Shown: positions 20,884-64,000 of the stretch, piece by piece
How positions within the stretch are numbered: the stretch's first letter is position 1
Layout: each line of letters starts with the position of its first letter
Origin: Myxococcota bacterium
Lineage (GTDB): Bacteria > Myxococcota > XYA12-FULL-58-9 > JALHOP01
Assembly: GCA_022842935.1 (NCBI GenBank)
Contig: JALHOP010000010.1
Span: 232,144 to 296,143 of the forward strand
DNA: 64,000 nucleotides
Reading direction: 5' to 3'
Made by a program: the position numbers and the translations under genes
The notes under the pieces: model-generated
The model's input: the letters and a program-made list of their open reading frames with translations, nothing else
Databases searched by the model: none
Told to the model about the DNA's origin: nothing

Positions 20884-20893
20884 CTCGAGGTTC

Positions 20894-28917: not shown

Positions 28918-29123
28918 GACCGACACGGTATAATCGCTTTGCGACGTTCAGGCAAACCTGCGCACACCGCCGTCAAGGCAGCGCCGGCACAGTCGTCGCC
29001 CACACGCCGAACGGCTTGCAACCAGGCAGGAAAAACGCCATCTAGCGAACCCGCGACTGGCGCGCGAAATCCGCGGCCAAGCCGCGACAAAGGGCCCCCG
29101 AGGCCAAGCGGAGCGCAAGCCCC

Positions 29124-43756: not shown

Positions 43757-43758
43757 CT

Positions 43759-43762
43759 GGAG
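43759..43762 (+). promoter_or_regulatory. Ribosome-binding core of mtnP
   Basis: GGAG seven bases before the ATG at 43770. It supports that start instead of the in-frame ATG at 43740, which lies inside the barrel gene. Confidence 0.55.
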
Positions 43763-43769
43763 CGCTCCA

Positions 43770-44630: not shown

Positions 44631-44650
44631 AGCGATGGCCGAGGAGACCT

Positions 44651-44696
44651 GAGGGCGTCCGGTGGCCCTTGCAGCGCGCGGTCAAGGCAAGCCCTC
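44651..44696. terminator. Possible terminator between convergent mtnP and the FHA regulator gene
   Basis: GAGGGC (44651-44656) pairs with GCCCTC (44691-44696), and inside it CCTTG (44667-44671) pairs with CAAGG (44683-44687). The stem is interrupted and lacks a U-tract, so the call is weak. Confidence 0.3.
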
Positions 44697-46023: not shown

Positions 46024-46056
46024 GCCCGTAACCTTGGTGTATGATTCCAGACAACC

Positions 46057-46719
46057 GTGAGCCGCCTCCTCGCCGTTTGCAGCGTGCTTTTTTGCGCCTC
46101 GCTGGCTCGAGCCACTGACCTGCGCCTGCATGTCGACATCGACACGGGTGCCGGCGTGGTCCCCGCGGTTGACGCGATTGTCTGGGTGCCGGGGCTTTTC
46201 ACGAAGCGAAGCGCGCCACGCGAGGCGCGCATCGAGCACTACGGCAAGCGTTTCGTACCCAGGGTAACGACCGCGCCCATCGGAACCGTCATCCACTTTC
46301 CCAACCTCGACGGTATCGACCACAACGCGTTCAGTCTATCGGACGCAAAACCTTTCGACCTGGGACTATACCGTGGCGGTGACGCACGCTCGGTGAGCTT
46401 CGATCGACCTGGCGTCATTCAGCTCTTCTGCAACATCCACGCGTCGATGGCCGCGTTCATCGTTATCGTGGACTCGAAGGCGCTCGCCAAGACGGACACC
46501 CAAGGAAATGCCGTGATCACAGACGTCCCGACGGGTATCCAGACGGTTGCGTTGTGGCACGAGCTCGCCGGTGAGAAGCGTCAGACCGTCGTGCTGCCAC
46601 GCCAGCCGGAGGTCGAGCTCGTTTACACCCTCGACGGCAAGAGCTGGAAGCCAACCACGCACAACAACAAGTTCGGTGAATCCTACCCAAGCGACACCGA
46701 AGGACGGCATCTCTATTGA
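46057..46719 (+). CDS. Periplasmic cupredoxin-domain protein
   Basis: 220 residues from a GTG. A signal peptide (MSRLLAVCSVLFCASLARA) precedes a cupredoxin-like beta-sandwich. The blue-copper ligand set is visible: the first His in DGIDHNAFS, then LFCNIHASMAAFIVIVD with Cys, His and Met in the order and spacing of plastocyanin/azurin-type sites. The fold resembles the plastocyanin-like proteins annotated as methylamine-utilisation type. Probably a soluble periplasmic copper/electron carrier or copper sensor. It is the first gene of an operon with a transmembrane Ser/Thr kinase and a barrel, and overlaps the kinase start (TTGA). Confidence 0.75.
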   Translation: MSRLLAVCSVLFCASLARATDLRLHVDIDTGAGVVPAVDAIVWVPGLFTKRSAPREARIEHYGKRFVPRVTTAPIGTVIHFPNLDGIDHNAFSLSDAKPFDLGLYRGGDARSVSFDRPGVIQLFCNIHASMAAFIVIVDSKALAKTDTQGNAVITDVPTGIQTVALWHELAGEKRQTVVLPRQPEVELVYTLDGKSWKPTTHNNKFGESYPSDTEGRHLY

Positions 46720-48818: not shown

Positions 48819-49576
48819 AACGCTCGACGTTGGCGGCGCTTGCACTAGCTTCGCTCGTCTGTGGTCGCGCAGAAGCTGGTCGGCGGACCCTGGGTTTCAC
48901 CCCAGACGCAACCCAGCTACCGCCGGGCGTCGTCGAGATCGAACAGTGGATGTGGTCGCGTGCTTATGTCGACGACATCAGCGGCGCGAGCAGCGGTTGG
49001 TTGTGGTTTGGCCCGGTGTATGGAGTCAGCGAGCGTTTCGAAATCGCGCTGCCGTGGCAGCTCAACGCGCACAAGACCAGCACGCGCATGGTCGCTTTCG
49101 GCGTCGAGGGACGCTACGCTTTCTTCGATCCCATCGATGAAACACAGTTTTTCCGTCCGCAATTGCGTGTCGGCTGGCAGCAGAACTTTTCGCACCCTGA
49201 CAACGGACCCAACTGGTTGGTGCCGTGGCTCACCCTCGACTTCGTGGGCACCATGGGTCAGCCGAACCGCCAGCACGTGTCCTTCGACATCGGTCTCACC
49301 ACCGACTTGAAAGGTGGGAACCGCTTTATCGAACATCAACTGGGGATCGGCGCTGTGACACCATTCCCGCTGCTCGAAGAGCTGCTCGTGGGGGCAGAGT
49401 ACCGTCACCAGTTGACACTCACGACTGGAGCGGTTGGCGATCGACGTTGGTTCTTCCTCGGGCCAACTGCAGCCTATGCGCGCGGCCGTCTTTGGGTCTC
49501 GTTCGCGTTGCTCGTCGGGGTCGGCGAGCTGGTTCCGCGGTTCCTACCGCGTCTGTCGCTTGGCCTCGTACTCTGA
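48815..49576 (+). CDS. Predicted outer-membrane protein in the cupredoxin-kinase operon
   Basis: 253 residues from a GTG overlapping the kinase stop (GTGA). A signal peptide (MKRSTLAALALASLVCGRAEA) and then strand-rich aromatic sequence (FEIALPWQLNAH, RYAFFDPIDET, RPQLRVGWQQNF, WLVPWLTLDFVG, VSFDIGLTTDL, RRWFFLGPTAAYARGRLWVSFALLVG) point to a small barrel. The C-terminus PRLSLGLVL lacks a final aromatic residue. No family is recognised. Tail overlaps the convergent mocA-like gene by 33 bases. Confidence 0.65.
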   Translation: MKRSTLAALALASLVCGRAEAGRRTLGFTPDATQLPPGVVEIEQWMWSRAYVDDISGASSGWLWFGPVYGVSERFEIALPWQLNAHKTSTRMVAFGVEGRYAFFDPIDETQFFRPQLRVGWQQNFSHPDNGPNWLVPWLTLDFVGTMGQPNRQHVSFDIGLTTDLKGGNRFIEHQLGIGAVTPFPLLEELLVGAEYRHQLTLTTGAVGDRRWFFLGPTAAYARGRLWVSFALLVGVGELVPRFLPRLSLGLVL

Positions 49577-50134
49577 GACCGCAGCAGGCGTGTTGAGGTC
49601 GACGATGACGTCCGGGTCATCAACGAGGAGGTCGCGCCGCGCTCCGGCAGGAAGATCGCGCAAAACGTGGTCGAGGCGAGCGACGCTGGCGTCCATGAGG
49701 AGAAGTGCCTTGGCGAGCGTGCGTGACAACAGCACTGGATGGCCACCATATCCGCCATATCGCGGCGTGGCCGCTTCAGCGGAGACAGCGCGCAGCAGGC
49801 CAATAACCGGCGGTTGACAACAGGGCACGTCGACGGGCAGCACCAAGAGCTGCTCCCAGACATACGGCTCGAGCGCCGCGATACCAGCACACAAGGAGCC
49901 AAAGGGGCCGTAGGCGCAGCGCGGATCGTCGACTAGACACGGAGCCAGCTCCGGCATCGCCTCGATGTAGGCTGGCCGATTCTTGCCGACGACGATGCGT
50001 ACGTCGCGCACCATGGCAGCGCGTAGCCGCGCCAACTGGAGCAACACCAACGGCTCACCCGCCACCGTGACGAGACCCTTTGGTCTCCCCATACGACGCC
50101 CCTCGCCACCCGCGAGAACGACAGCGGCAATCAC
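49544..50134 (-). CDS. MocA/MobA-like molybdenum cofactor nucleotidyltransferase
   Basis: 196 residues from the GTG at 50134, overlapping the XdhC stop (GTGA); the long frame upstream is antisense to xdhC. The N-terminus AAVVLAGGEGRRMGRPKGL is the signature of MobA/MocA NTP transferases, and LPVDVPCCQPPVI and YGGYGGHPVLLSR carry the metal and substrate residues. In molybdenum hydroxylase operons such enzymes add CMP (MocA) to molybdopterin. It therefore likely prepares cofactor for the xanthine-dehydrogenase-family enzyme encoded upstream in the same operon. Confidence 0.85.
   Translation of the reverse strand: MIAAVVLAGGEGRRMGRPKGLVTVAGEPLVLLQLARLRAAMVRDVRIVVGKNRPAYIEAMPELAPCLVDDPRCAYGPFGSLCAGIAALEPYVWEQLLVLPVDVPCCQPPVIGLLRAVSAEAATPRYGGYGGHPVLLSRTLAKALLLMDASVARLDHVLRDLPAGARRDLLVDDPDVIVDLNTPAAVSEYEAKRQTR
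49771..49782. repeat. CCGCTTCAGCGG inverted repeat (recurrent motif copy)
   Basis: Full copy of the recurrent motif in the mocA-like gene; coding strand GCT GAA GCG GCC (Ala-Glu-Ala-Ala). Confidence 0.6.
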
Positions 50135-50904
50135 TTGCGGTTCGCCAAGGCGACGAGCTCGGCGGCCACGCTGATGGCCACCTCGCGGGGTGACTTGCCA
50201 CCGATGTCGACGCCGATGGGGCACCGTACACGCTCGGCGGCAGCAACGTCGGCGCCGCGGGCGAGGAGGCGCTTCTTGATGCGAGCCCACTTGGTCGCGC
50301 TGCCAATGAGCCCGAGATAGCGGACTGGCTTGTCGATGAGGGCGCGCACGATGTCCTCGTCGAGCTGATGACTGTGGGTCATCACCGCCACATAGCTGGT
50401 CTGGTCCGACCAGGCGGTCATACTGGCGACGTCTTCCCAGGAGACATGTCGCGCCACGCGGGCGCTCACCTCCTGCGCGTTGAGCCAATCGTCACGTTCG
50501 TCGACCAAGTGCAGTCGAAACGGAGTCCCCTCGAGCACAGCCACCACGTGGCGCGCCACGTGGCCAGCGCCGAAGATGTAGAGCTCGGGGCCTCCGCCTA
50601 CGGTTTCGCAAAACACATCGACCGCGCCACCACAGCACTGTCCAAGCTCGGGCCCGAGAGCCACATGGACGAGCTTGCTCTGCCCGCTCGCAAGGCACGC
50701 CTTGGCCTCGGCGATGGCGCGTTCTTCCAGTGCACCGCCACCGATGCTACCCGCGAAGAGCCCGTTGACGTCGACCAACATCTTGGCGCCAACGGCGCGT
50801 GGCGTAGAGCCCTCGCAGCGCACAACGGTGACGAGCGCGACAGGTCGACCCGCAGCCATCGCCGTCTGCACGGCACTGGCCCAGTCCCAGCTCCCGTCGC
50901 TCAC
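50131..50904 (-). CDS. xdhC: XdhC-family molybdenum enzyme maturation factor
   Basis: 257 residues. The GTG at 50904 overlaps the stop of the FAD subunit by four bases (GTGA), which is preferred to the ATG at 50925. XdhC inserts sulfurated molybdenum cofactor into xanthine-dehydrogenase-type enzymes. It has STPRAVGAKMLV, GSIGGGALE, LGQCCGGAVDVF and the C-terminal Rossmann segment (ELYIFGAGHVARHV, YLGLIGSATKWAR). Cytoplasmic. Downstream of the three catalytic subunit genes. Confidence 0.9.
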   Translation of the reverse strand: MSDGSWDWASAVQTAMAAGRPVALVTVVRCEGSTPRAVGAKMLVDVNGLFAGSIGGGALEERAIAEAKACLASGQSKLVHVALGPELGQCCGGAVDVFCETVGGGPELYIFGAGHVARHVVAVLEGTPFRLHLVDERDDWLNAQEVSARVARHVSWEDVASMTAWSDQTSYVAVMTHSHQLDEDIVRALIDKPVRYLGLIGSATKWARIKKRLLARGADVAAAERVRCPIGVDIGGKSPREVAISVAAELVALANRK

Positions 50905-51761
50905 GCGACAAAGCTCATGAGGCACTCGCGCAGCAAATTGCGCGTGACGCGGCCCCGATACTCAGCCGTCGAGCGAATATCGTCAATCGGTCGAGCCTCG
51001 GCGACACCGAGCGCGACGATCCGCGAAACCGCCTCGGTGCTAAGCAGACCCGCGGCCAGCGCGGACGCGAGCTCTCGCTCTACGATCCGAGCGCGCACCA
51101 CTGTCGGAGCTACGCTACCAAAAGCGATGCGAACATCGTGGCCGCGACGCACTGAGGCGCTAATGCATACCTTCGAAATAGCCTGCGCCCTGCGCGTACC
51201 CACCTTGCGATAGAAGTGGCGCATCGGCGCGTCGACGAGCGGCACACGCACCCGCACGATCAGCTCGTCGGGCCGCATCACCGTCGTCTTGTAGCCGGTA
51301 TGGAAGCCGGCGTAGTCGACCCAACGAGCACCAGACGCCGAGCGTAGCTCGACCTCGCAATCATGCACGAGCAGCGCCGGAGGCAGGTCGGCGGCGGGCG
51401 AGGCATTGGCGATATTGCCCCCGATCGTGCCGCGATTGCGAATGGCGACCGCCGCCGTATCACGCGCCGCGGCGGCGAGTGTCGGTGCGTGTTCGGCAAC
51501 CAGCGACGACTCGATGAGATCGGTGTAGGTGGTGAGCGCCCCTATCGTCAGGTGACGCCCAACGGTCGCGATGCCGCGCAGCTCATCGAGCTGCCAGATG
51601 CTAATGAGGCGCGCGTCTCGCAAGAGTCCACGCTCGAATGCCACCATGACGTCGGTGCCACCAGCAAGCACGCGATGACCCTTGTTGTCGGCGAGGAGCG
51701 CCAAGGCACTGTCCAAGTCCGCTGGAGCGACCAGCGTGTGAGCATGGGCGTCGCCTCTCAA
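50901..51761 (-). CDS. FAD-binding subunit of a xanthine-dehydrogenase-family enzyme
   Basis: 286 residues from a TTG overlapping the iron-sulfur subunit stop (TTGA); no better start exists. Family landmarks: HRVLAGGTDVMVAF, ISIWQLDELRGI, and the FAD-binding AIRNRGTIGGNIANASPAADLPPAL. The C-terminal domain has VGTRRAQAISKVCIS. Passes electrons from the iron-sulfur clusters to FAD and on to an acceptor. Equivalent to CoxM/XdhB; subunit letters differ between systems so no symbol is given. Confidence 0.88.
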   Translation of the reverse strand: MRGDAHAHTLVAPADLDSALALLADNKGHRVLAGGTDVMVAFERGLLRDARLISIWQLDELRGIATVGRHLTIGALTTYTDLIESSLVAEHAPTLAAAARDTAAVAIRNRGTIGGNIANASPAADLPPALLVHDCEVELRSASGARWVDYAGFHTGYKTTVMRPDELIVRVRVPLVDAPMRHFYRKVGTRRAQAISKVCISASVRRGHDVRIAFGSVAPTVVRARIVERELASALAAGLLSTEAVSRIVALGVAEARPIDDIRSTAEYRGRVTRNLLRECLMSFVA

Positions 51762-52234
51762 GGCGTACTCGCAAGTAAGCGGGCCGCTTCACGCACGGCG
51801 TCGAAGATCTTGGTGTACCCGGTGCATCGGCAGATGTTCCCGGCGAGCCCCTCACGGATCTGGTTCTCATCGGGGTTTACGACCCGCGTGAGCAAATCGA
51901 CCGCAGCGATGACCATGCCTGGCGTGCACATGCCGCACTGAGCGCCGCCATGGCTGATGAATGCGGCCTGCACGGCGTGCAGCACGTTGCCCTTGGCGAT
52001 GCCTTCGATCGTGGTGATGGTGGAGCCGTCGGCTTGCAAGGCGGGCACCAAGCAGCTGTTGACGATGCGGCCGTCCATGATGACGGTGCAGGCGCCGCAT
52101 TCACCTTCTCCGCAACCCTCCTTGGTGCCGGTTAGGTTTGCTTCCTCGCGCAAGACGTCGAGTAGGCGCGCCATTGGGGGCACTTCGAACGAACAGGCCG
52201 CTCCGTTGACGCTGCAGCGGACTTGGCTTTTCAT
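51758..52234 (-). CDS. [2Fe-2S] subunit of a xanthine-dehydrogenase-family enzyme
   Basis: 158 residues. Two clusters are visible: plant-type C41, C46, C49, C61 (KEGCGEGECGACT) and the second site C100, C103, C135, C137 (GAQCGMCTPGM, GNICRCTGY). Equivalent to CoxS/XdhC-type small subunits. The ATG overlaps the stop of the large subunit gene (ATGA) and the stop overlaps the FAD subunit start, so the three subunits are co-translated. Confidence 0.95.
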   Translation of the reverse strand: MKSQVRCSVNGAACSFEVPPMARLLDVLREEANLTGTKEGCGEGECGACTVIMDGRIVNSCLVPALQADGSTITTIEGIAKGNVLHAVQAAFISHGGAQCGMCTPGMVIAAVDLLTRVVNPDENQIREGLAGNICRCTGYTKIFDAVREAARLLASTP

Positions 52235-54489
52235 GCGCTCTTCCTTCGGGCCGACAACAGGTCGTCCACCGCGTCCATGAGCTGCTCAGGCATCAGCGGC
52301 ACATGGTGTAAGGCCGGGTGCGGGGCACCGAGAGCCTCCTCAATGGCGTTGACGATCGCTGGCGCCGGACCGTCCATAGGGAGCTCGCCGATGCCCTTTG
52401 CGCCGCTGGGTCCGTGTGGATACGGAACCTCGTCGAAGAACACCCGGATGGCCGGCACATCGACGCTAGTGGGCACGATGTAGTTGGTGAACTGGCCATT
52501 GGCCATGCGACCTTCCCGCCAAACCACGTTTTCGTAGAGGGCAAAGCCAATGCCTTGTGCGACGCCACCTTCGATCTGGCCGGCAGCTAGCACCGGATGA
52601 ATCACGCGGCCGACCTCTTGAAGTGCCACGAAGTCTTCGACGCGCGCTTCGTAGGTGACGGTGTCCAACGCGACCGTCGCGACATAGACCGCCCACGCGT
52701 ACGTTCCGTAGGCGTCGCCTCGGTAGCTCTGATCGTCCCATGCGATGCCGTCGGGCGGGCTGTATTGCGCCATCGACCGCAGAGACCCGACGGTCGCGAT
52801 GTACTTCTTCACAGCCGCCCTAAACTGCTGGGGGGTGTAGGGCTCGCTGAGCAGACCGGCCTGCACCAAGATCTGTTTGATGCCGAGCGCCGCTTGCTCG
52901 ACCAGCTTCCCAACCACCATGGTAGTACGTGACGCGACAGTTGGTCCGCTATTGGGAACAACAGACGTATCGGGCTGTGCGACCTCGACGTCATCCCAAT
53001 CGAGACCGAGCGCCTGAGCCGCGATCTGCGTGAAGATGGTGTTGGTACCCTGTCCTATCTCGGTGCTCGCGGCGAGAACCCTGACCTTGCCCTCAGCGGT
53101 GCCGGTGGCTCCGACCACCGACGCTAGGTACTTCTCACCCGACCCGGTGAAGCCCGAGCCGTGCATGAAGCTCGCGAAGCCGATGCCACGTTTGACGCTG
53201 CGACCGGGGTTTTCGCGCGCAAACCGTTCGCGCTTCGCGTCGTAGTCCGCTTCAGCGAGCGCGCGTCGGAGAATGCTCGGCATATCGACAGGCTCTTTGA
53301 TGAGCTGGTGTGTCGCCGTGGTGTCGCCCTGCTTGATGAAGTTCTTGAGGCGGAGCGCTTCCGGGGTGAGCCCAACGGCACGCGCGACCTTATTCATGTG
53401 CCGCTCGAGTCCGAAGATGCTCTGAGGCGCGCCGAAGCCGCGAAAGGCGCCGTGTGGCGGATGGCTAGTGGCGACGGCACGCGCGCGGATACGCACGTTG
53501 TCGATCGAGTAGGGGCCCGCGGCGTGGATCGTGCCGCGCGAGAGAACGACTGGTGACAACGTGTTGTAGGCACCGCCGTCGATGACGAAGTCGATGTCCA
53601 TTGCCACGATCGTGCCGTCTTTGGTGACGGCGGTGCGGTGCTTGGTACGCGAGGGATGGCGCTTGGTGGTGGCTACCATGTCCTCGGCACGGTCGTAGAT
53701 CATCTTGACCGGCTTGCCGGCTTTGCGGGCGAGCAGCGCGGCGTGTCCGGCGATGAGCGACGGATACTCTTCTTTGCCGCCGAAGCCGCCGCCCGTCTCC
53801 GTCTGCACGACCCTGATCTTGTCGGCCGGAAGACCAAACAGGCCGAGCAGCGCCTTGTGCACGTAATACGGACACTGCAGCGAGCCCCAGACCGTCACCG
53901 AATTCTCGTCAGCGACGGCAATGACGCCGTTGTTCTCGATGTAGAGCTGCTCTTGCGCGCCGGTCGAGTATTCGCCTTCGACGACGATGATGTCCGCTCG
54001 CGCGAACACGGCGTCGACATCACCTTTGGTGAGGTTGTATTCCTTGAAGATGTTGTCTTCGCCCCAGATCACGGGGTCTTTGGCGAGCGACTTGTCGATG
54101 TCGAAGAGGGCCGGGAGCTTCTCGATATCGAAGCGAACGGCGTTGCGCGCGCGCTCGAGGAGATGACGGTCGGCATGCGCGAGCAACAGGACCGGCTCTT
54201 CGGCATGCCGGAGCTCGGTCGCCGCCAGGAAAGGCTGGTCGTTGGTGAGCAACGCGACGTGGTTGCGCTCCGCTGGGATGTCGGCGGCAGAGACCACGAT
54301 GATCTCGTTCCAGGGAACGCCATCGGCAAAGCTAACCCCGCGCAGGCGACCTCGCGCGACCGGACTGCGCACGGTCACGCCATACAGCGCATCGGGCATG
54401 CGCATGTCGTCGATATAGCGAGCCCGTCCGGTAACCTTGTCCGGGCCCTCTTTTCGCGGAACCGATTTACCAACTAGCGCGTCAGGCAC
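52231..54489 (-). CDS. Molybdenum-binding large subunit of a xanthine-dehydrogenase-family enzyme
   Basis: 752 residues from a GTG. It has the N-terminal KVTGRARYIDDMRMPDALYG domain, the cofactor motif TGGGFGGKEEYPS, AFRGFGAPQ (the Arg/Phe active-site loop of xanthine dehydrogenases, not the AYxCSFR of CO dehydrogenases), ASTEIGQGTNTIFTQIAAQ, and the catalytic Glu in GAKGIGELPM near the C-terminus. It hydroxylates an aromatic heterocycle or aldehyde; a purine such as hypoxanthine/xanthine is the best guess. No other purine-catabolism genes are adjacent. First of five coupled genes; it starts nine bases after gltJ. Confidence 0.9.
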   Translation of the reverse strand: MPDALVGKSVPRKEGPDKVTGRARYIDDMRMPDALYGVTVRSPVARGRLRGVSFADGVPWNEIIVVSAADIPAERNHVALLTNDQPFLAATELRHAEEPVLLLAHADRHLLERARNAVRFDIEKLPALFDIDKSLAKDPVIWGEDNIFKEYNLTKGDVDAVFARADIIVVEGEYSTGAQEQLYIENNGVIAVADENSVTVWGSLQCPYYVHKALLGLFGLPADKIRVVQTETGGGFGGKEEYPSLIAGHAALLARKAGKPVKMIYDRAEDMVATTKRHPSRTKHRTAVTKDGTIVAMDIDFVIDGGAYNTLSPVVLSRGTIHAAGPYSIDNVRIRARAVATSHPPHGAFRGFGAPQSIFGLERHMNKVARAVGLTPEALRLKNFIKQGDTTATHQLIKEPVDMPSILRRALAEADYDAKRERFARENPGRSVKRGIGFASFMHGSGFTGSGEKYLASVVGATGTAEGKVRVLAASTEIGQGTNTIFTQIAAQALGLDWDDVEVAQPDTSVVPNSGPTVASRTTMVVGKLVEQAALGIKQILVQAGLLSEPYTPQQFRAAVKKYIATVGSLRSMAQYSPPDGIAWDDQSYRGDAYGTYAWAVYVATVALDTVTYEARVEDFVALQEVGRVIHPVLAAGQIEGGVAQGIGFALYENVVWREGRMANGQFTNYIVPTSVDVPAIRVFFDEVPYPHGPSGAKGIGELPMDGPAPAIVNAIEEALGAPHPALHHVPLMPEQLMDAVDDLLSARRKSA
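53246..53258. repeat. TCCGCTTCAGCGA copy of the recurrent motif
   Basis: Near-full copy in the large subunit gene; coding strand GCT GAA GCG GAC (Ala-Glu-Ala-Asp). Confidence 0.5.
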
Positions 54490-54498
54490 CGGGCGAGA

Positions 54499-56244
54499 CT
54501 AGCGCACAGTGATAGGCAGCGGGAAGTTGGTGATCGGGGCGCCGCTCTTCGACGCCGCGAACTTCCAGGACCCCATGACGCGCGCGAAGCAGGACGGCAA
54601 GGAGGTATTCATCACCTCTTGCGGTCCCTTCAGACGCGCGGCCGTCACCGAGCCGTTCGGGTTGATGGTCCAGTCGAGGACGAACTGGACACGCCCCGGC
54701 TGAATCTCTTCCTTCGAGCGGGCGGCGGTGACACACGGGCCCAGCTTCGAGCCGTTGGCCTTGACGCCATCGATGATGTCTTCCTTCGATAGCGCTTCCT
54801 TGACCGAGGCCTGCTGCTGTTGCTGCTTCTGACCTTGTTCGATCTGCTCGAGCGGATCGTCGCTCGGCTTGGGGGCCTTGGTCTTCGCCTTCTCTGGCGT
54901 GCGGTCGCCTCTGTCACGGTCAGGATCGTTGTGGGCCGCTTTCGCCTTCGCTGGCGGGTCGTTCTTGGCGACCGGCGGTGGCATGGGAGGCGCGACTGGA
55001 GGCGCGGTCGGATCGACTGGGGCCGGGGGTGGCGTGGGCGTCGGCGCGGGCACCGGCACCTGCTGGACGATGACCTGCGGCTGTTGATGCTGCATCTGCC
55101 AGACCATGAAGCCACCGAGACCCAAGACGGCGACGACGAGCAGGCCAACGACGATTTTGGTTCCCAGGCCGCTGCCGCTGCTGCGGCGGGCGCTCGGCAC
55201 AGACCAGGCAGGACTACCGCTCGACGAGAAGCTGTCGCTTGCGGGAGTGGGGGTGGACGTAGCCGCCTGCCCCATCGTGATAGGCGTGCCACCGCCGGTG
55301 TTGCCGGACCCGAAGATGTCATTGGCGCCGATGTTGAGCCCGAGCCCCTCCATGCCCTTCGGGGCCGACGCCGGTTCTGGAGCATCAGGCTTCTTGGCGA
55401 CCAGCTCTTCTTGCACGAGCGACGACAAGGCGCTCGCGGCAGATGGACGCCACGACGGCTCATCGGCCATTTCTTGCGGCGCGTAGGCCTGCATGCCCAT
55501 CGCCGAACCGGCCGCGGCGGTTGCCCCGCTCCGCGCCATGCTGCGCTGCACTTGCGGTCGCTCGGTAATGAGGTAGGCGAGCTCAGGCACATCGACCAGC
55601 GGAATCCAGTCCGCCATACCGGCCTTCCACACGAGCGTGTCTTCGTCGATCTCTTTGTTGTCCCACCGTTCTTCGACCTCGGCGAGGTTCACGGGACCAA
55701 CCTGTGCGTCTTCGATGGCCACGTACCATACGCGTTCGCCGCCGCGATCGCTCGAGACCGGCGCCTGCTGCTGCTCGAGCTGGCCGAGCGCCATGTCGGT
55801 ATCGCCGCCGTGTCCTCCAAACGAGCTCTGAAAACCGAAGGCACCGCTGTCCCCGCCACCTTCACTTGCGTGATTGCCGTTGCTGTACGAACCGTTCGTG
55901 CCCTCATTTTGGGGCGCGGAAGCCTCGCCCTGCTCGCCGCCAAACATAGAGTTGAACGCACCGCCGAGGTCGCCTTGAGGCGCTGGACTGCTGGTCTGGG
56001 TGTCGCCGAACGAGCCCCCCATGCCGGAGGCGCTCATCGAGCTCATGCCGCTCGACGCGACGCCCGCGCTCGCACTCAATCCAGCGTCCGCCATGGCCGG
56101 CGAAGACGATGCCGCAGCTTCAGGAGCGGGCTTGACGACAATCATGTTGCCGCACTTCTTGCACTTAACTTTGACGCCACGAGCGCCGACCTTTTCGTCA
56201 GCGATCATGTACTGGGCGCCACAACTGTCGCAGGCAAACCGCAT
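54499..56244 (-). CDS. gltJ: GltJ (AgmX)-like inner-membrane protein
   Basis: 581 residues. The N-terminal MJ0042 zinc ribbon (C5, C8, C28, C31) is followed by a Ser/Gly-rich linker and a GYF domain at about 172-224 (VWYVAIEDAQVGPVNLAEVEE...WIPLVDVPEL). One span lies at about 363-383. A Pro-rich periplasmic linker leads to a TonB-like AgmX/PglI C-terminal domain at about 490-581 (SKLGPCVTAARSKEEIQPGRVQFV, FAASKSGAPITNFPLPITVR). This is the complete GltJ/AgmX architecture. In M. xanthus its zinc ribbon and GYF domain face the cytoplasm and respond to MglA to control focal-adhesion assembly. Here it lies 35 kb from gltG. Confidence 0.9.
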   Translation of the reverse strand: MRFACDSCGAQYMIADEKVGARGVKVKCKKCGNMIVVKPAPEAAASSSPAMADAGLSASAGVASSGMSSMSASGMGGSFGDTQTSSPAPQGDLGGAFNSMFGGEQGEASAPQNEGTNGSYSNGNHASEGGGDSGAFGFQSSFGGHGGDTDMALGQLEQQQAPVSSDRGGERVWYVAIEDAQVGPVNLAEVEERWDNKEIDEDTLVWKAGMADWIPLVDVPELAYLITERPQVQRSMARSGATAAAGSAMGMQAYAPQEMADEPSWRPSAASALSSLVQEELVAKKPDAPEPASAPKGMEGLGLNIGANDIFGSGNTGGGTPITMGQAATSTPTPASDSFSSSGSPAWSVPSARRSSGSGLGTKIVVGLLVVAVLGLGGFMVWQMQHQQPQVIVQQVPVPAPTPTPPPAPVDPTAPPVAPPMPPPVAKNDPPAKAKAAHNDPDRDRGDRTPEKAKTKAPKPSDDPLEQIEQGQKQQQQQASVKEALSKEDIIDGVKANGSKLGPCVTAARSKEEIQPGRVQFVLDWTINPNGSVTAARLKGPQEVMNTSLPSCFARVMGSWKFAASKSGAPITNFPLPITVR

Positions 56245-56485
56245 ACTGGGCGGCTCCGAAGCTTGAGAATACGAAAGGCTTGACTCCCCGCAGGGGACAC
56301 CGCGCGGGGAAACAGACTCGCGAGGTAAGCGTAACCCACACGAGAATACTGCGCAAATTACCCGGCCGGACGCGTTTGGGCAACCCGTGCCAAGCGCGGT
56401 GTGTCAATTCGCGCTGCGGTCGATTGGGGCGGACCATGAGCACAGGTCTTTGTTTTCACTGCGAAAAGGCCTAGGTTTAGCGCCC

Positions 56486-57343
56486 ATGCGCTTCGTTTCG
56501 TTCACCGTCCAAGGACGCCCCAGCTTCGGGGTGGTTACCGGAGCAGGCATCGTCGACCTTGGCGCACGCTTCAGTCGCATTGTCCCAGACCTCGGCACGT
56601 TTCTCGAAGCCCGGGCTCTCGACGTCGCTCCCGCGGTCAACGCAGCATGGGAGGCCGACTACCGACTCGACGAGGTGCAGCTTCTGCCGGTCATACCCAA
56701 GCCGGCCAAGATCATCTGCGTCGGCGTGAACTACGACGAACATCGGCAGGAGATGGGCCGCGAGACCGCAAGCTACCCCACTCTCTTCACGCGCTTCGCC
56801 GATACTCTGGTGGGTCACAACGGCAGCATCGTGCGGCCGCGGGTGTCGACATCGCTCGACTTCGAGGGCGAGCTCGCGTTCGTCATCGGCCGCGAGGCAA
56901 AAGCGGTCAAGGTCGACCATGCCATGGGCCATGTCGCGGGCTTCACCTGCTTCAACGACGCAACGCTCCGTGATTGGCAGCGCCACACCAGCCAGTTCGT
57001 CCCGGGAAAGAACTTTTTCTCGACTGGCGCGCTGGGGCCCCAGCTGGTCACGCCCGATGAGGTGCCCGACTTCGGCGGGCGATCTCTCACGACCCGCTTG
57101 AACGGACAGGTCATGCAGGCGGCAACGCTCGGTCAGATGATCTTCTCGGTGCCCGAAATCGTGGCGTACGTCACTAGCTTCACCCGTCTGGTGCCAGGCG
57201 ACGTCATCGCGACGGGCACGCCCGCGGGCGTCGGAGCCAAACGCACACCACCGGTCTTCATGAAGCCGGGCGACATCATCGAGGTGATCATCGACGGCGT
57301 TGGGCACCTGAAGAACACCATCGTCGACGAGCTCGCCGCCTGA
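56486..57343 (+). CDS. Fumarylacetoacetate hydrolase family protein
   Basis: 285 residues from the ATG at 56486; the upstream in-frame ATG at 56387 adds a stretch without family similarity. The FAH fold motifs are clear: KIICVGVNYDEHRQEMGRE, PTLFTRFADTLVGH, LDFEGELAFVIGR with the metal-binding Glu residues, GFTCFNDATLRDWQ, and DVIATGTPAGVGAKR. Members cleave C-C bonds or hydrate acyl-pyruvates or ureidoglycolate; which substrate is not clear. Two bases separate it from the next gene, so they are one operon. Divergent from gltJ over 241 bases that hold no recognised feature. Confidence 0.9.
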   Translation: MRFVSFTVQGRPSFGVVTGAGIVDLGARFSRIVPDLGTFLEARALDVAPAVNAAWEADYRLDEVQLLPVIPKPAKIICVGVNYDEHRQEMGRETASYPTLFTRFADTLVGHNGSIVRPRVSTSLDFEGELAFVIGREAKAVKVDHAMGHVAGFTCFNDATLRDWQRHTSQFVPGKNFFSTGALGPQLVTPDEVPDFGGRSLTTRLNGQVMQAATLGQMIFSVPEIVAYVTSFTRLVPGDVIATGTPAGVGAKRTPPVFMKPGDIIEVIIDGVGHLKNTIVDELAA

Positions 57344-57344
57344 C

Positions 57345-58001
57345 ATGGGCGACCCAGTTCTATGCGTCTTCGCGCGGGCACCCCTCCCGGGTCGCTGCAA
57401 GACAAGGCTTGCTGCGACGATCGGTGACCATCCTGCCGCCGAGCTTTACGCGGCGATGCTGTCGGACACGCTCGAGCGTATGTCTTCCATCACGAACGCA
57501 CGAAAAGTGTTGCTCGCGGCGCCCGAGCACGACGGTGTAGCTGCCTTGCGGGGGCTCGCGCCCGCTGGGTGGGATGTGGTGCCACAACACACGGGAGACC
57601 TGACGGCCCGCCTGAGCGATGCATTCGCGTCCTTGGGGAACGGTGGCACCGTCGTTTGCGTTGGAAGCGACGCGCCGCTGGTTCCTATCGATGCTCTGCA
57701 AGTCGCTTTAGCGGACGCAGATCATGACGTCGTCGTTGGCCCGAGCCGCGATGGCGGCTACTGGGCCATCGGCATGCGACGCCCCATTCCACGCCTTCTC
57801 GTCGACATGCCCTGGAGCAGCGACCGCGTGAGCGCCGAGACCCTCGAGCGCTGCCAAGCTCTAGGCCTTGCTGTACGTTTGCTCCCCGAAAGCTTCGACG
57901 TCGACGAGGTCGCCGACATCGAAGCCCTCGCGAGTGCCATTGGGCTGCGACCGGGTGCCGCGCCGCGTTGTGAAGCGTGGCTGCGCGCCTACCGCCCTTA
58001 A
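57345..58001 (+). CDS. DUF2064 / CofC-like nucleotidyl- or glycosyltransferase
   Basis: 218 residues. The N-terminus LCVFARAPLPGRCKTRL and CVGSDAPLVPIDAL, VVGPSRDGGYWAIGM are the signature of the TIGR04282 / DUF2064 family (rSAM/selenodomain-associated transferase 1), GT-A-like proteins whose substrate is generally unknown. Ends back-to-back with the next gene's stop on the other strand. Confidence 0.8.
   Translation: MGDPVLCVFARAPLPGRCKTRLAATIGDHPAAELYAAMLSDTLERMSSITNARKVLLAAPEHDGVAALRGLAPAGWDVVPQHTGDLTARLSDAFASLGNGGTVVCVGSDAPLVPIDALQVALADADHDVVVGPSRDGGYWAIGMRRPIPRLLVDMPWSSDRVSAETLERCQALGLAVRLLPESFDVDEVADIEALASAIGLRPGAAPRCEAWLRAYRP
57706..57714. repeat. CTTTAGCGG copy of the recurrent motif
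   Basis: Lies in GTCGCTTTAGCGGAC (57702-57716), inside the DUF2064 gene; frame GCT TTA GCG GAC (Ala-Leu-Ala-Asp) with the Leu codon TTA. Confidence 0.5.
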
Positions 58002-58808
58002 CTACTTGCGCACGAAGCGCAGCGTCATGCGGTCACTCTCACCGATGGCGGCGTACTTCTCGCGGTCCTGGTCTTTGAGCGCGAATGTCGGAGGCAGCGC
58101 CCAGACACCTTCGGGGTAGTCTTTGGTATCCTTCGGGTTGGCGTTGATCTCGCTCTTCGCGTCGAGGGCGAAGCCCTTGGCCTCCACGGTGCTGATGACC
58201 CATGCCTCGGGCACGTAGCCCGTATCGCCGCCCTTGGCTGGGTCGGCGCCAGGATTCGCCCGGTGGTCGACAACCCCGAAGACGCCGCCTGGCTTGAGGA
58301 CGTTATGGACCGCCTCGAGCAGCTGCTCCATTTCGGCGGGCTTGAGGTTGTGGAGACTGCGGAAGGTGACGACCATGTCGGCGCTACCAGCCGGTCCCAG
58401 GTCCCATGCATCGAGCGGCTGAATACGGGTCTGGGCCTTGACGAACTTGTCGGGCGCGGTCGCCATGCGCTCAGTGAGCGCTTTGGCGTACTTCACGCCC
58501 GGGCCGTCTTCTGGACCATTCGGATCAGCGATCGGCAGCACCAGCTGACCCTTTTCGGCCAGCACGGGCGCGAGGATGGCCGTGTACCAGCCACGGCCGG
58601 GCATCAACTCGACCACGGTCATGTCGTCGCGGAGCCCGAAAAACGCGAGCGTCTCGCGTGGATGACGAAACGCGTCGCGCGCACGTTCCTCGTCGCTACG
58701 ATGCGCACCTGCGAGGGCGCTGTCCATTTTAGCGGTTGTTACCGAAGGCGCGGTCGTGGCGCAGGCGGCACAAAGCGCGAGCGCGGAGAGCATGAGTGAA
58801 TTTTTCAT
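58002..58808 (-). CDS. Lipoprotein-signal SAM-dependent methyltransferase-like protein
   Basis: 268 residues. MKNSLMLSALALCAAC is a lipoprotein signal (lipobox CAAC, Cys 16). The mature part is a class I methyltransferase-like fold: TVVELMPGRGWYTAIL (motif I), LVLPIADPNG, SADMVVTFRSLHNL, VLKPGGVFGVVDHR. It matches the group of predicted methyltransferases with N-terminal signals (COG4798). Exported SAM enzymes are puzzling because the periplasm should lack SAM; the fold may have another use. Its stop is directly next to the convergent stop at 58001. Confidence 0.8.
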   Translation of the reverse strand: MKNSLMLSALALCAACATTAPSVTTAKMDSALAGAHRSDEERARDAFRHPRETLAFFGLRDDMTVVELMPGRGWYTAILAPVLAEKGQLVLPIADPNGPEDGPGVKYAKALTERMATAPDKFVKAQTRIQPLDAWDLGPAGSADMVVTFRSLHNLKPAEMEQLLEAVHNVLKPGGVFGVVDHRANPGADPAKGGDTGYVPEAWVISTVEAKGFALDAKSEINANPKDTKDYPEGVWALPPTFALKDQDREKYAAIGESDRMTLRFVRK

Positions 58809-58934
58809 GCGCTCCCCTTAGCAAAGGCATCGGCGGCTGGGAACAACCCAGGCAAGGGCCTCGAGCCTATCGTGGCATGGCGGTACGGCAGTGGAGATTT
58901 GTGGGGGGGGAGCGCGGCGCGGTAACTTGCGACG

Positions 58935-59969
58935 ATGTTCGCTACCGAATCCGAAGCACGCTCTGCTTTAGAAGACTCGATGGACGCGTCGGACGTGGCG
59001 CTCGCGATGGCGGCTCTTGCGCCGGCTGTGTGCTTCAGTGACGGAACGGATCGCCCTGGAGGCTCGAAGCTCGGCGGCTGCCCCGAGCTCGCGCGCGGAG
59101 TGGCCTGGCCCATGCGCAAGGCTCTCGAAAACCTCGATGACGTCGTACGGCGGGGTGGCAGTAGCCACGCCGAGCACATCGCAACCTACGGGCGAGACGA
59201 TGTCCCCTTCCCTTTCTTTGCGCAGATCGACTGCGCGGAGGTTCGCCGTGCCGCACCCGATGTCGCGCGTGACCTCCCCGAGCGCGGCAGACTGCTCTTC
59301 TTCTATGACATATGGTGTGGACCCTGGGGTGACGACGACGTGTCGGCGCTCGTTCTCCACGACGTCACGCCGGCCGCGAAGCTCGTCGCCTGCACGCCCC
59401 CCAAGGCGCTCCTTGCCATCGAGGAACAGGAACGCGACGCCTGGCGCGCCGCGATGGTCGCGGCCAAGCTCGACCCGAACGAATACGACGCGCCGCGATG
59501 TATCCACCCCACGCGCGCGCTTGCCCCCGAGCGTTCGCTCGTCTTGCCGGACTTCATGAGCTTCGATGCACGGCGCCATCCTGCGCTCCTCGCGCGTGCC
59601 GACGACGATGACTTCTCCGAAGCGTACGGCGCCTTCGCCGACTGGGGTGGCGGTCTCTTCGAGGGCCCGGACGGTGGCGCACGCCTGCATCGGATGCTCG
59701 GCCCGCCGGTGTGTGTGCAACGCGACCCGCGGGTGCACGGCGTGCTGCAAGACGACGCGACGCGATGGACCAACCCCGGCTGGTCCGACCCTGCATTTCG
59801 CGAGCGCATCGCCTCGGACGGACTCGCCTGGCGGGTGCTGCTTCAGATCGATCTCGCCGACCTCACACAGGTGCGGCTCACCGAGGGCGTCGTCTACTTC
59901 ATCATCCGCGCCGACGCACTCGCAGCCGGAGACTTCTCCGGCGTGCGTGCCGTCTATCAGCAGACCTGA
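58935..59969 (+). CDS. DUF1963 (YwqG-like) family protein
   Basis: 344 residues. The DUF1963 pattern is recognisable: SKLGGCPELARGVAWP, FPFFAQIDCAEVRR, GRLLFFYDIWCGPWG, the central GGARLHRMLGPPVCVQ and the end WRVLLQIDLADLTQVRL...VYFIIRADALAAGDF. The family is widespread and uncharacterised; no catalytic site is assigned. No signal peptide. It ends 12 bases before the convergent gltI gene. Confidence 0.85.
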   Translation: MFATESEARSALEDSMDASDVALAMAALAPAVCFSDGTDRPGGSKLGGCPELARGVAWPMRKALENLDDVVRRGGSSHAEHIATYGRDDVPFPFFAQIDCAEVRRAAPDVARDLPERGRLLFFYDIWCGPWGDDDVSALVLHDVTPAAKLVACTPPKALLAIEEQERDAWRAAMVAAKLDPNEYDAPRCIHPTRALAPERSLVLPDFMSFDARRHPALLARADDDDFSEAYGAFADWGGGLFEGPDGGARLHRMLGPPVCVQRDPRVHGVLQDDATRWTNPGWSDPAFRERIASDGLAWRVLLQIDLADLTQVRLTEGVVYFIIRADALAAGDFSGVRAVYQQT

Positions 59970-59981
59970 ACCGCGGCGCCC

Positions 59982-62900
59982 TCAGCCGGCTTTACCGACC
60001 ACCAGGGCCCCGCCCGACATCTGGCGGAGCTGGAAGTACTCGCGCGACACCGCGAATAGCACGAGGTCCTTGATGCGCTGCTTCACCGAGCCCGCACCCG
60101 TCTCTCCGGTCTTCGTGATGCCACGGATGGCAGCCGCGAGGTCGCCGCAGGCAATGAGCCCCGCGCGCGCCGCTGTCGTCTCGACCGCAGCCTGGTAGAC
60201 CTTCAGAGCGTCGCCCTTGCCGAGCAACGGGTAGGCGTTCTTGGCGGGCTCTTGCAAGCGCTTCAAGGCCTGCGGTGGCATGCGCTCGAAGTGCTGGGCC
60301 CAGCGATCGACCTCACGTGGGTTACCGCTGTGGGTAAGCTGGCGGTTGTAGACCAAGCAAAGGCCGAACAGGACGTCGCGCAGCTCGTCGCCGGCGTGCA
60401 CCCGGCCGAGGAAGAGCTCGGGGCGCGCGTAGCTCATGTTGCGTCCAACCTGGAAGAGCAACATGCGCTGGTCGGTCTCACGGAAGATGTCGTTGGCTTC
60501 GCCGGCCGCGAGCGCAGGCGGCTGCGCCGGAACGATCGCGAGAGGCTCCATCGAGCCCGACTTCTTGTAGAGGTCGACGCCCTGGACGTTCAGGAGCTTG
60601 CCGACGTAGCGCATGCGCGTCGCGAGGTAGAGCTCGTTGGTGCGAACGTCGATGAAGTCCTTCTTCTTGAGATTCAAGTCCTTCGCGGCAACCGTGCAGA
60701 AATCGGGAGCGGCGCGATACAAGTTCGCGGCGAGGTGACCAACGGGCCCGTTGAGGCCCTCGTGGAGCAGCATCGGCCACTGATCGTCGTTGAGCGACTG
60801 CGAGGCGAGCGCCGGAATGCCCTGCTGCAAGTAGGTGAAGACCTTCTTCTCTTCCTCGTCAGCCTCGTTCAAGCAGACGAGAGCGGACGCTAAAGCGTAC
60901 ACCTGATCGAACTGCTGACCGACGTGATAGAGCTGGCGAAGTTTCTTGACCGGCTGCACCGGATTGTCGAGCTCGGTGATGAGCTCGTGCATCATGTCGA
61001 TGGCTTTCTTCCGCTGCTCGGGCTTCTCCGCGTACAGATCGGCGAGGATCTGCGTGTCGGTGAGCTTGCCCGGCTCGAGCTTGCGGATGACCTCGTACGC
61101 CATGATGGCGTTGTCGAGCTGCTTGAGCACGCGCCGATAGAGCTCGGCGAGGTTGCGCCACAAGACGATGCGCACCTGCGGCGCGAGATCTTTGGCTCGG
61201 CCGATCATCGCGCGGTAGTTGCCTTCGAGCTTGTCCCACGCGCGCTGGCCAGTGAGGATGCGCTCGATGGCCTCGAACGCCTTGATGTTCGTAGGCATGG
61301 CGTCGAGCGCCTTGTTGTAGTGCTTGACCGCGCCGCTGTCGTCCTTGACGTCCCGCTCGAGCACGGTCGCCAGCAAGAAGTTGAGCTCGGAGAGCTTGCG
61401 GGGGTCGCCGGCCATACCGACCGCCTGCGTGAGCACCTCGACGGCTTGCGGCGACTGGCGCGTCTCCATGTATTGCTGCGCCAGACGCTCGAGCACGTCG
61501 AGCGACGCAGAGCCGCTCCGGCGAGCGCGCTCGAGCGCTTCGATGGAGCGCGAGCCGTCCGCCAGCTTGTCGCGCGCGATGACGGACAAGCGCATGAGGA
61601 CGTCGGAGCGCTCTTGACCGGTGAGGGCATCAGCGAGCCGTGAGAGACGCTCGTAAGTGCCGTTCCAGTTCTCCATCATCTCGTCGAGGCCGGCGAGCGC
61701 GCGCAGAGACGGGCCGTGGTCCGGATCGATCTCGAGCGCCTTCTCGAACTGCTTATAGGCGCGGTCGGGCTGGTTCATCTTCATGGAGATGTCGCCCAGC
61801 TGCCACTGCACGTCGACGACCTCACTCTCAGTCAGCGCGTCGCGGTGATGGATGAGGATGGTTTGGAAGACCTTCTGCGCTTCTTCCCAGCTCTCGGCGG
61901 TGAGCAACGCCTGCCCGAGCCCTTCGAGAGCCGGCAGGTAGGTCGCATCCGCCTCGAAGGCGACGCGATAGTAGTTGAGCGCGCGGTCTCGGTCGCCCAG
62001 CTTCTCGGAGATATAGGCCAGGCGGTAGTTCTTCTGGCAGTAGTCTTTCGCATCCTTGGCGCGGTCGATCTGCTCGACGACGATCTTGTGCAGCTCGTCG
62101 GCGCGCTGCCAATCTTCATTGCGGAAGTAGATCTCCCCCAAGGACTTCGCAGTCTCGAGGTGGTTCGGCGTAAGCTCTAGCGCACGGTTGTAGAACCGAA
62201 TCGCCGACTGTTCGTCTTGGCGGATGTTCTGGAAAAACTGCGCAGCCTCGAAGAAGAGGTCTGTCTTCTCCTCGATGTCTTCGGTGCTCTCGGCCTCCGC
62301 GATGACGTGCTCGGCGTAGGTGTCCCAATCAGCCGACTGCTTGGCGAGGTTCTTCATCGCCTGCAGGGCTGGCCCGTAGTTTGGCTCGATCTCGAGGGCG
62401 CGCGCATAGGCGGTCTTGGCGGCAGCCAAGTCCATGAGCATGTCCTCGTTGATCTTGCCCACACGCATGAGCACCCCGAGACCCTTCGGGTCCTGGCCCA
62501 ACGCCTCGGCTTCGCGTGACAACATCTCGAGCGCCTGGAACCAGTTGCCCGAGCGTTCGTAGAGCTGCCCTAAGGCATGCAGCGCGGCCGCGTTGTTCTC
62601 GTTGAACGAGCGCGCGGTGGTGTACGCCTCTTCTGCTTTGTCGACGCGCGTTAGCTCGCGGTAGTAGATGTCACCGATCTGCAAATAGAGTTCGGTGATC
62701 TCGTCCTTGTCCTGAATGAGCGTGATGTGGTGCGTGAGCAGCTCGATGAGGCGGGGCCACTCCGCGAGGACGCGTAACAGGCGCTCGAGCTGCTTGACCG
62801 CGACCATCTGCGTGGCGTCGAGCGCGAGCACGCGTTCGTAAGCCGCGGCTGCATCTTTCTGCGAGGAGAAGTGCTCCTCGTAGATTTGCGCTTCCTTCGA

Positions 62901-64000
62901 CAGGATGCGGATCTTCTCTTCGTTGCCGGTCGCCTGGGCGATCTGCACCTCGAAGACCTGGATGAGCTCGCTCCAGCGCTCGAGGCCAGTGTACTGCCGC
63001 TCGAGGGACGCCAGGGCCACGGCGTTACCCGGATCGAACTCGAGGACGCCGCGGTACCACTCGATGGCTGCTTCGTTGTCGGCAAGCTCTCCTTCGCAGA
63101 GCGCCGCAACCTGAAGTCGCAGGTCCACACCCTGCTTGGGATCGTGCGCGAGCTCCACCTTGCGGGTAAGCGTGTGCGCAAGCTCACCCCAGCGTGACTC
63201 GCCCGCGAACAAGCGCGCTAGGCCGTCCAGCGCGTTGATGTCTGCACCGTCGATCTCGAGCACGCGCCCGAGCGCAACGATGGCCTCGTCGACATCACCA
63301 ATGCGATCTTCCCAGATGCGCGCGATGTCGAAGAGGATGGCCTTACGGATGGTGTCCTCACCAACCGCCGAGAGCTTACGCTCCAGGGCTTGGATCTGTT
63401 TGTCGAAGCGTTCTTCGCGAGCGCCCAAGGCCGCCATCATGTCGATGGCTTCGACGTCGGCGGGCTCGAGCTCGAGTATCTTGCCGAGCGCTGTCTCCGC
63501 CTGATGAACGTCCTTGAGCTCTTCGGCGTACAAGCGGGCGAGCCGCCGCAACGAGGCGACCTTCACCTGCGTGTCGTGGATGTTCTCGAGCTCGTCTTCG
63601 AGGACGGCCGCGAGCTCCTCGGCGCCACCGGTCTCTAGACCGATGCGTTCGAGCACCTGAGCCGCGGTGAGATCTTGCGGGTTCTCCTTGTAGACACGGC
63701 ACGCCGCGATGAAGCCTAGCTCTTTTTCGCCGAGCTTCTCGTCCTGAACGTCGCGAATCTCCGTGAGGATGGTCAGGCGCGAGGCGACCCCCGCGTGTGG
63801 CACGTAGTCTTCGTTGAGAGCCACCAGGCGGCGCCACTCGTTGGTGTCGCGATAGATGTGCGCCAAAGCGGTGTACGCTTCTTCGTCGTCGGGCTGCACC
63901 TCGCGGATGGCCTCGTAAGCGCCACGCGCGTCGTTCGGCTTACTGAGGCGGTCGCGGTGAATCTGCGCCGCCTCATAGAAGCGGGCGACCTTCTGACCAG
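59982..64000 (-). CDS. gltI: GltI (AgmK)-like giant cytoplasmic TPR protein, C-terminal part
   Basis: About 1339 residues visible; the frame is open through base 64000, so the start lies beyond the window (the Met/GTG at 63899 is internal). Repeated helix pairs of about 34-40 residues run along almost the whole length (for example YRGVLEFDPGNAVALASLERQY, AYTTARSFNENNAAALHALGQLYE, YNRALELTPNHLETAKSLGEIYF, YKQFEKALEIDPDHGPSLRALAG). No signal or span. M. xanthus GltI/AgmK is a cytoplasmic TPR protein of several thousand residues adjacent to gltJ; here gltI also lies upstream of gltJ on the same strand, with four unrelated genes between. Generic TPR scaffold is the alternative. Confidence 0.75.
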   Translation of the reverse strand, partial: GQKVARFYEAAQIHRDRLSKPNDARGAYEAIREVQPDDEEAYTALAHIYRDTNEWRRLVALNEDYVPHAGVASRLTILTEIRDVQDEKLGEKELGFIAACRVYKENPQDLTAAQVLERIGLETGGAEELAAVLEDELENIHDTQVKVASLRRLARLYAEELKDVHQAETALGKILELEPADVEAIDMMAALGAREERFDKQIQALERKLSAVGEDTIRKAILFDIARIWEDRIGDVDEAIVALGRVLEIDGADINALDGLARLFAGESRWGELAHTLTRKVELAHDPKQGVDLRLQVAALCEGELADNEAAIEWYRGVLEFDPGNAVALASLERQYTGLERWSELIQVFEVQIAQATGNEEKIRILSKEAQIYEEHFSSQKDAAAAYERVLALDATQMVAVKQLERLLRVLAEWPRLIELLTHHITLIQDKDEITELYLQIGDIYYRELTRVDKAEEAYTTARSFNENNAAALHALGQLYERSGNWFQALEMLSREAEALGQDPKGLGVLMRVGKINEDMLMDLAAAKTAYARALEIEPNYGPALQAMKNLAKQSADWDTYAEHVIAEAESTEDIEEKTDLFFEAAQFFQNIRQDEQSAIRFYNRALELTPNHLETAKSLGEIYFRNEDWQRADELHKIVVEQIDRAKDAKDYCQKNYRLAYISEKLGDRDRALNYYRVAFEADATYLPALEGLGQALLTAESWEEAQKVFQTILIHHRDALTESEVVDVQWQLGDISMKMNQPDRAYKQFEKALEIDPDHGPSLRALAGLDEMMENWNGTYERLSRLADALTGQERSDVLMRLSVIARDKLADGSRSIEALERARRSGSASLDVLERLAQQYMETRQSPQAVEVLTQAVGMAGDPRKLSELNFLLATVLERDVKDDSGAVKHYNKALDAMPTNIKAFEAIERILTGQRAWDKLEGNYRAMIGRAKDLAPQVRIVLWRNLAELYRRVLKQLDNAIMAYEVIRKLEPGKLTDTQILADLYAEKPEQRKKAIDMMHELITELDNPVQPVKKLRQLYHVGQQFDQVYALASALVCLNEADEEEKKVFTYLQQGIPALASQSLNDDQWPMLLHEGLNGPVGHLAANLYRAAPDFCTVAAKDLNLKKKDFIDVRTNELYLATRMRYVGKLLNVQGVDLYKKSGSMEPLAIVPAQPPALAAGEANDIFRETDQRMLLFQVGRNMSYARPELFLGRVHAGDELRDVLFGLCLVYNRQLTHSGNPREVDRWAQHFERMPPQALKRLQEPAKNAYPLLGKGDALKVYQAAVETTAARAGLIACGDLAAAIRGITKTGETGAGSVKQRIKDLVLFAVSREYFQLRQMSGGALVVGKAG
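60887..60898. repeat. ACGCTAAAGCGT variant of the recurrent motif
   Basis: Inverted-repeat variant within gltI; coding strand reads GCT TTA GCG (Ala-Leu-Ala) with the Leu codon TTA. Confidence 0.45.

Follow-up and report, generated by a model that had tools for sequence, protein, structure and literature searches.

How do gltI and gltJ, two genes of the Glt gliding transducer, come to be separated by four unrelated genes and to lie 26 kb from an operon resembling gltA-H? The question is raised by contig JALHOP010000010.1 (C10) of a draft genome, in 46 contigs, of a Myxococcota bacterium (G000). We analysed 64,000 nt of this contig, positions 232,144–296,143 ('the window'; coordinates without a contig label are window positions), against a comparison set of 28 other genomes, the order itself being represented by eight genomes including G000. 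A preliminary description had suggested either that the locus was invaded or that gltI and gltJ were joined the machine as a pair, after gltA-H. We consider it very probable that two insertions entered an ancestral PNP_UDP_1–gltJ–gltI locus, and that the operon in the window belongs to a sister machine.

The two genes at issue are the following.

54499–56244, minus strand: gltJ (agmX) orthologue, 581 amino acids, with a zinc ribbon, a GYF domain and a TonB-like tail
59982–64000, minus strand: gltI (agmK) orthologue, of which the C-terminal 1338 codons lie in the window, assigned by its C-terminal domain match and by the gltJ found 3' of it in relatives

The full gltI frame has 3566 codons and runs beyond the window to C10:302825 (70682 on the window scale); M. 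xanthus GltI is given as 4132 amino acids in PMC3169522. The frame encodes a giant TPR protein whose C-terminal domain, outside the TPR region, is seen in alignment to be conserved. This domain, of which 290 amino acids served as our GltI query, is 53–60% identical to that of the four same-order GltI proteins of G004–G007, and the N-terminus of the full TPR frame has matches of 47–54% in the GltI frames of G004, G005 and G006. The preliminary description had matched the giant TPR protein ending at 59982, on the same strand as gltJ, to GltI, a match that membership of an unrelated family at full length would have overturned; the complete frame bears the match out. A second GltI-like giant TPR protein, of 3545 codons, is encoded elsewhere in G000 (C17:50527-51387) and has counterparts in G004, G005, G006 and G007; the G005 counterpart sits on the contig of the Glt core.

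The domain order earlier proposed for GltJ also holds. Its N-terminal zinc ribbon and GYF domain resemble domains of known structure from 'Adventurous gliding motility protein X', the name carried by the chains of its best PDB matches, 7zok (zinc ribbon) and 7z3c (GYF), which we take to come from M. xanthus. The TonB-like tail scores 37.6 bits, just below the cut-off of 40, and a membrane span and a proline-rich stretch were read from the sequence by eye. The gene at 54499–56244 is, to judge by domains and conserved position rather than by the curated model, a GltJ orthologue.

In G000 the two genes are 3,737 bp apart, so that gltJ does not directly follow gltI. Elsewhere the GltI C-terminal domain was matched in 24 of the 28 other genomes, and gltJ lies directly 3' of gltI, on the same contig and strand, in 20 of these 24 (counted by hand from the match tables, on the GltJ side among the matches listed). 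Within the order, where GltI is present in seven of eight genomes, gltJ adjoins it on the same strand in all six others, with spacers of 98, 107, 93, 116 and 121 bp in G001, G004, G005, G006 and G007 respectively; the start of gltJ was not found in G002. The preliminary description had proposed inspecting the pair in relatives as a check, and the outcome supports insertion. The pair is not adjacent in G011, G015, G016 and G022. The GltI matches of the last three are weak (26–33% identity) and may be paralogues. No gltJ was found in the DNA 3' of gltI in G011, G016 and G022, and the G015 contig stops about 1.9 kb past the GltI match, with no GltJ match in between. G011 has a clear GltI (43%) on C79 and its best GltJ match on C73; its split is probably independent of that in G000.

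The other side of gltJ has been opened as well.

43740–44630, plus strand: PNP_UDP_1 phosphorylase-family gene, the ancestral 3' neighbour of gltJ
44631–54498, no strand assigned: second inserted block of about 9.9 kb, between the PNP_UDP_1 gene and gltJ

An orthologue of the PNP_UDP_1 gene, 51–60% identical, stands beside gltJ in G002, G004, G005 and G006, convergent with it and separated from its stop codon by 9–42 bp in the first three and by 2.1 kb in G006; the contigs of G001 and G007 end before this position. The second block is missing from this place in the same four genomes. It contains a sigma-54 activator with an FHA domain and a Ser/Thr kinase, together with two further kinds of gene recognized by eye, nucleotidyltransferase-like and xdh/cox-like subunit genes. 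As in these four relatives, the order PNP_UDP_1–gltJ–gltI is kept in G000 across both inserts. Since gltJ has newcomers as neighbours on either side while this order remains intact, insertions are favoured over a chimeric contig. The sequence comparisons thus support insertion between an ancestrally adjacent gltI-gltJ pair, a derived and lineage-specific opening of the pair in a known machine, by local rearrangement.

A gap of 9 bp separates the gltJ stop codon from the start of the xdh/cox-like large-subunit gene on the same strand (52231–56244), and gltJ may be co-transcribed with the molybdoenzyme cluster. This proximity, like the non-ancestral genes on both flanks of gltJ, would also suit a history in which gltJ itself moved, to the front of the xdh-like operon between the PNP gene and gltI. 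We regard such a move as improbable: the ancestral order and strand still hold, with gltJ between the PNP gene and gltI, so that a gltJ that moved must have landed in its original slot, whereas two insertions preserve the order without coincidence.

The four genes listed between gltJ and gltI in the preliminary description are indeed those present.

56387–57343, plus strand: FAH-family hydrolase (PF01557), its true start perhaps the ATG at 56486
57345–58001, plus strand: DUF2064/TIGR04282 glycosyltransferase-like gene, 1 bp after the first
58002–58808, minus strand: methyltransferase-like gene with an N-terminal export-signal-like stretch (by eye)
58935–59969, plus strand: DUF1963 gene, convergent with gltI and 12 bp from it

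Three of the four are on the strand opposite to gltI and gltJ. In relatives the inserted genes are not at the gltI-gltJ place, and elsewhere their occurrence is sporadic. Genome-wide searches of the 28 other genomes at E 0.001 matched the FAH protein in 18, never on the gltI-gltJ contig, and the methyltransferase-like protein in three, the best match being 50% in G027, and gave no match for the DUF1963 protein. On composition, a foreign origin was rejected for the four genes, their GC content (0.635–0.674) and GC at third codon positions (GC3, 0.70–0.79) being those of most neighbours. Nor do the genes appear to travel as a unit: around the FAH gene of G008, G017, G023 and G027, none of the other three has a match at E 1e-8.

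What, then, is the operon 26 kb away?

18776–28247, minus strand: operon of gltA-H-like paralogues (window type; candidate for an Nfs type), distinct from the core of gltI-gltJ
28375–28926, minus strand: separate FHA-like gene beside this operon

The distance given in the preliminary description is correct, and its identification of the operon as the core is not: the operon is, as far as sequence comparison can tell, a paralogue of the Glt core belonging to a sister machine, and Glt-type gltA-H genes lie on contig C9, from about 285,000 (the start of the stretch read) to 304,194, near the contig end. In G006, where the core runs into gltI-gltJ, the core is 23–25% identical to the window operon over the A–D matches, and 46% and 38% identical to window F and G over short stretches. 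With the G006 GltD as query, four genes are found in G000, on C9 (54%), C10 (the window copy, 28%), C1 (27%) and C16 (23%); the window GltD as query gives seven matches, one further among those listed being a 383-codon frame on C20. Against the curated models the C9 proteins pass the cut-offs (in brackets) for GltC with 480 bits (450), GltF/CglF with 94 (90) and GltH/CglE with 93 (70). The window proteins pass none of those for GltC (158 bits, cut-off 450), GltG (215, 650), GltE (53, 225) and GltF/CglF (58, 90).

The same division is seen in trees of GltD, for which frames were chosen by BLAST, roots placed at the midpoint and support measured by the Shimodaira–Hasegawa-like approximate likelihood ratio test (SH-aLRT). 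In a 66-row tree a clade of 22 rows (SH-aLRT 100) unites the C9 copy with all eight copies located 5' of gltI on the gltI contig (G006, G013, G014, G015, G020, G024, G026 and G027). The window GltD falls outside this clade and in the next one (21 rows, SH-aLRT 100), together with a G002 copy, both being on the 3' side of gltJ. Trees of 55 and 54 rows give the same two clades, with support of 99 and 100. G001_C324 was left out of the 54- and 66-row trees for its long branch, and G013 and G015 were added to the 66-row tree, one frame being entered for the broken G013_C5; the GltD gene 5' of gltI is there split into two frames of 558 and 626 codons (G013 C5:105840-108807).

The window GltG-like protein lacks an FHA part. 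In the window-type operon the FHA-like domain has its own gene, unfused to the GltG-like protein (28375–28926 and 19384–20883 respectively), and a separate FHA-like gene also adjoins the operon in G006 C245 and G004 C19. The C9 set has in turn been interrupted between gltC and gltD by 6.8 kb of inserted DNA (C9:288964-295750) that includes long frames of 660 and 1248 codons on the minus strand; the other cores read (G001, G004, G005, G006, G007 and G011) all have gltC next to gltD.

Between the end of gltH and that of C9 lie 3.4 kb, and between the start of gltI and the end of C10 about 1.4 kb. Our guess is that the two contigs adjoin at these ends, as the order in G006 would predict. A join by shared end repeats was considered and proves nothing, the repeat having 36 matches across the genome. 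GC-rich minisatellites lie at C10:303873-304172 (period 14) and C9:307280-307557 (period 54), and some of the 36 matches to the C10 type are at contig ends. In G005 no Glt core was found in at least 18.8 kb upstream of gltI, and in G004 no gltI in 8.4 kb beyond gltH, so that separation of the core from gltI also occurs elsewhere in the order.

The DNA immediately upstream of gltJ bears on how the split may be tolerated.

56245–56386, minus strand: region upstream of gltJ, with a block similar to the gltI-gltJ spacer that bears the promoter in relatives, but without the strict promoter pattern

A sigma-70-like pattern, TTGA-N18-20-TAnnnT, occurs in 12 of 13 gltI-gltJ spacers of relatives, against a mean of 0.11 and a maximum of 1 in 500 rounds of shuffling and none of 13 on the reverse strand. 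It occurs in one of four further spacers, giving 13 of 17 in all, a count that omits, from the 20 genomes with an adjacent pair, G002 and G019, in which the start of gltJ was not found, and G017. Of the 14 bases in one block of the G006 spacer, G000 retains 12, a match equalled in none of 2000 shuffles; the corresponding blocks of G004 and G007 were equalled in 103 and 21 of 2000. A scan of 54000–60500 for consensus promoters found none. We conclude that gltJ is probably, to go by the conserved spacers, normally its own transcription unit with its own spacer promoter, and that the G000 copy of the promoter block is degenerate. As gltJ would ordinarily be expressed from its own promoter, its separation from gltI was probably tolerated. 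An own promoter of this kind in many Myxococcota would explain how the linkage of gltJ, the GYF/zinc-ribbon component, can break.

Several observations weigh against the account given so far. For the promoter, the strict pattern was set after the spacers had been viewed and fails in G000, G008, G012, G013 and G025, and a plain sigma-70 score is ordinary in G000, where 196 of 300 shuffles did as well, and in most single relatives. GltJ scores 253 bits against the curated model NF033761, short of the cut-off of 450. This cut-off is reached by none of the eight genomes of the order, while the GltJ of G014 scores 908; it seems to exclude the order as a whole. The borders of the insert show no direct or inverted repeats, tRNA or composition step, and there is no mobile-element signature among border repeats and tRNAs, no separate integrase or transposase search having been made. 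The GltG and GltE of C9 miss their cut-offs (460 bits against 650 and 153 against 225), and the window GltH passes the CglE model with 120 bits against 70, above the 93 of C9. This model also passes the second A–H cluster of G014 (211 bits), so that it does not separate the paralogues. The fork that makes the two GltD clades sisters is supported at 96 in the 55- and 54-row trees and at 90 in the 66-row tree. In G002 a window-type core lies about 11 kb from gltI-gltJ on the same contig (C329). Finally, the insertion is read from a draft assembly.

Some of these points would fit a reversal of roles, in which the window operon would be the gliding core and the C9 set its paralogue, gltI-gltJ truly lying 26 kb from their core. 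The window operon shares their contig and has the better CglE score, and G002 repeats the neighbourhood (window-type core, Hsp70, PNP, gltJ, gltI); G002, whose genome is 97% complete, has two GltD matches, both outside the Glt clade. Nevertheless, we think this very unlikely, as all eight GltD copies 5' of gltI group with that of C9, which also leads the window in score for GltC, GltG, GltE and GltF. A chimeric assembly is a shade less likely still. The number of contigs and the dispersed minisatellite found at some contig ends could invite one, but the window contains no N, its GC and GC3 are even, the frames at the borders are intact, and both flanks keep the order of independent genomes. 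Least probable of all is that gltI and gltJ were recruited jointly after gltA-H, with the window as an intermediate: a later origin of the two has been proposed from taxonomic distribution (PMC3169522), but gltA-H and gltI-gltJ form one uninterrupted run in G006, the gltH and gltI frames are 1.8 kb apart in G014, and the split in G000 is derived.

The idea of joint recruitment put forward in the preliminary description thus finds no support in the spacing, since the window operon is not the Glt core and its 26 kb distance says nothing about late recruitment. This corrects a tempting inference, the operon in view being a paralogue.

On the two-insertion account, then, the ancestor would have had a contiguous gltI-gltJ pair followed by the PNP_UDP_1 gene. 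In the lineage of G000, four ordinary chromosomal genes would have come to separate gltI from gltJ, and some 9.9 kb, the xdh/cox-like cluster among them, to part gltJ from the PNP gene; the C9 set of gltA-H would likewise have taken up its 6.8 kb insert. The first insert appears to have entered upstream of gltJ's own spacer promoter, whose function is suggested by its conserved sequence in relatives. Judging from orthology, the proteins presumably still build the known Glt gliding transducer. The window operon would be that of a sister machine, most likely Nfs-type, and would not date the recruitment of gltI-gltJ.

In M. xanthus, the Nfs proteins (nfsA-H) are a Glt paralogue without I, J and K, encoded in one region and concerned with spore coats (PMC3858216 and PMC2875238). 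The window operon has A–H homologues on one strand that are closest to Glt, and no I or J within it (GltK was not searched for); it lacks the FHA domain that a NfsG should have, and is for this reason called Nfs-type rather than Nfs, an assignment that we make from sequence features with moderate confidence. In G014, whose Glt proteins score far above the curated cut-offs (GltG 1033, GltJ 908, GltE 772), a second cluster has A–H in one run and falls in the window GltD clade. The Glt clade and the window clade each span more than 10 families, which does not fit the published origin of Nfs by 'recent duplication'; for a newer treatment of that origin, a literature search gave, beyond the papers named here and unrelated ones, only the review PMC12288465. 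With two neighbouring clades of this breadth, the published origin becomes testable with more genomes. We tentatively suggest, as a view slightly more doubtful than not, that Glt and Nfs-type transducers split before the families of Myxococcota diverged, and not by recent duplication on a terminal branch, so that up to four such machines for surface transport, ancient and specialised, would be present in many lineages, and that gltJ is a free-standing transcription unit throughout the phylum, controllable apart from the other Glt genes.

Among the closest known systems is the G1 cluster of M. xanthus, gltD-J (MXAN_4870-4862; PMC3169522). Like G000, it has a giant TPR GltI and a GltJ that combines a zinc ribbon, a GYF domain and a TonB-like tail, and the two genes agree in order and strand; G000 differs in having 3.7 kb with four unrelated genes between I and J, and its Glt-type gltA-H on another contig with 6.8 kb inserted between C and D. 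The window operon, for its part, resembles M. xanthus nfsA-H (MXAN_3371-3378; PMC2875238 and PMC3858216) in its A–H homologues on one strand without I and J. A further likeness to Nfs is that its GltD-like protein lies in the clade next to Glt, with the second A–H cluster of the Glt-positive G014. It differs, on published descriptions, in a GltG-like protein without the FHA domain of NfsG and a GltE-like protein of 265 rather than 499 amino acids. Within the same order, Deltaproteobacteria bacterium RIFOXYA12_FULL_58_15 (MGST01000016.1; G006 C16) has a GltI C-terminal domain 53% identical to that of G000, and there gltA-H-I-J is uninterrupted, whereas in G000 it is split.

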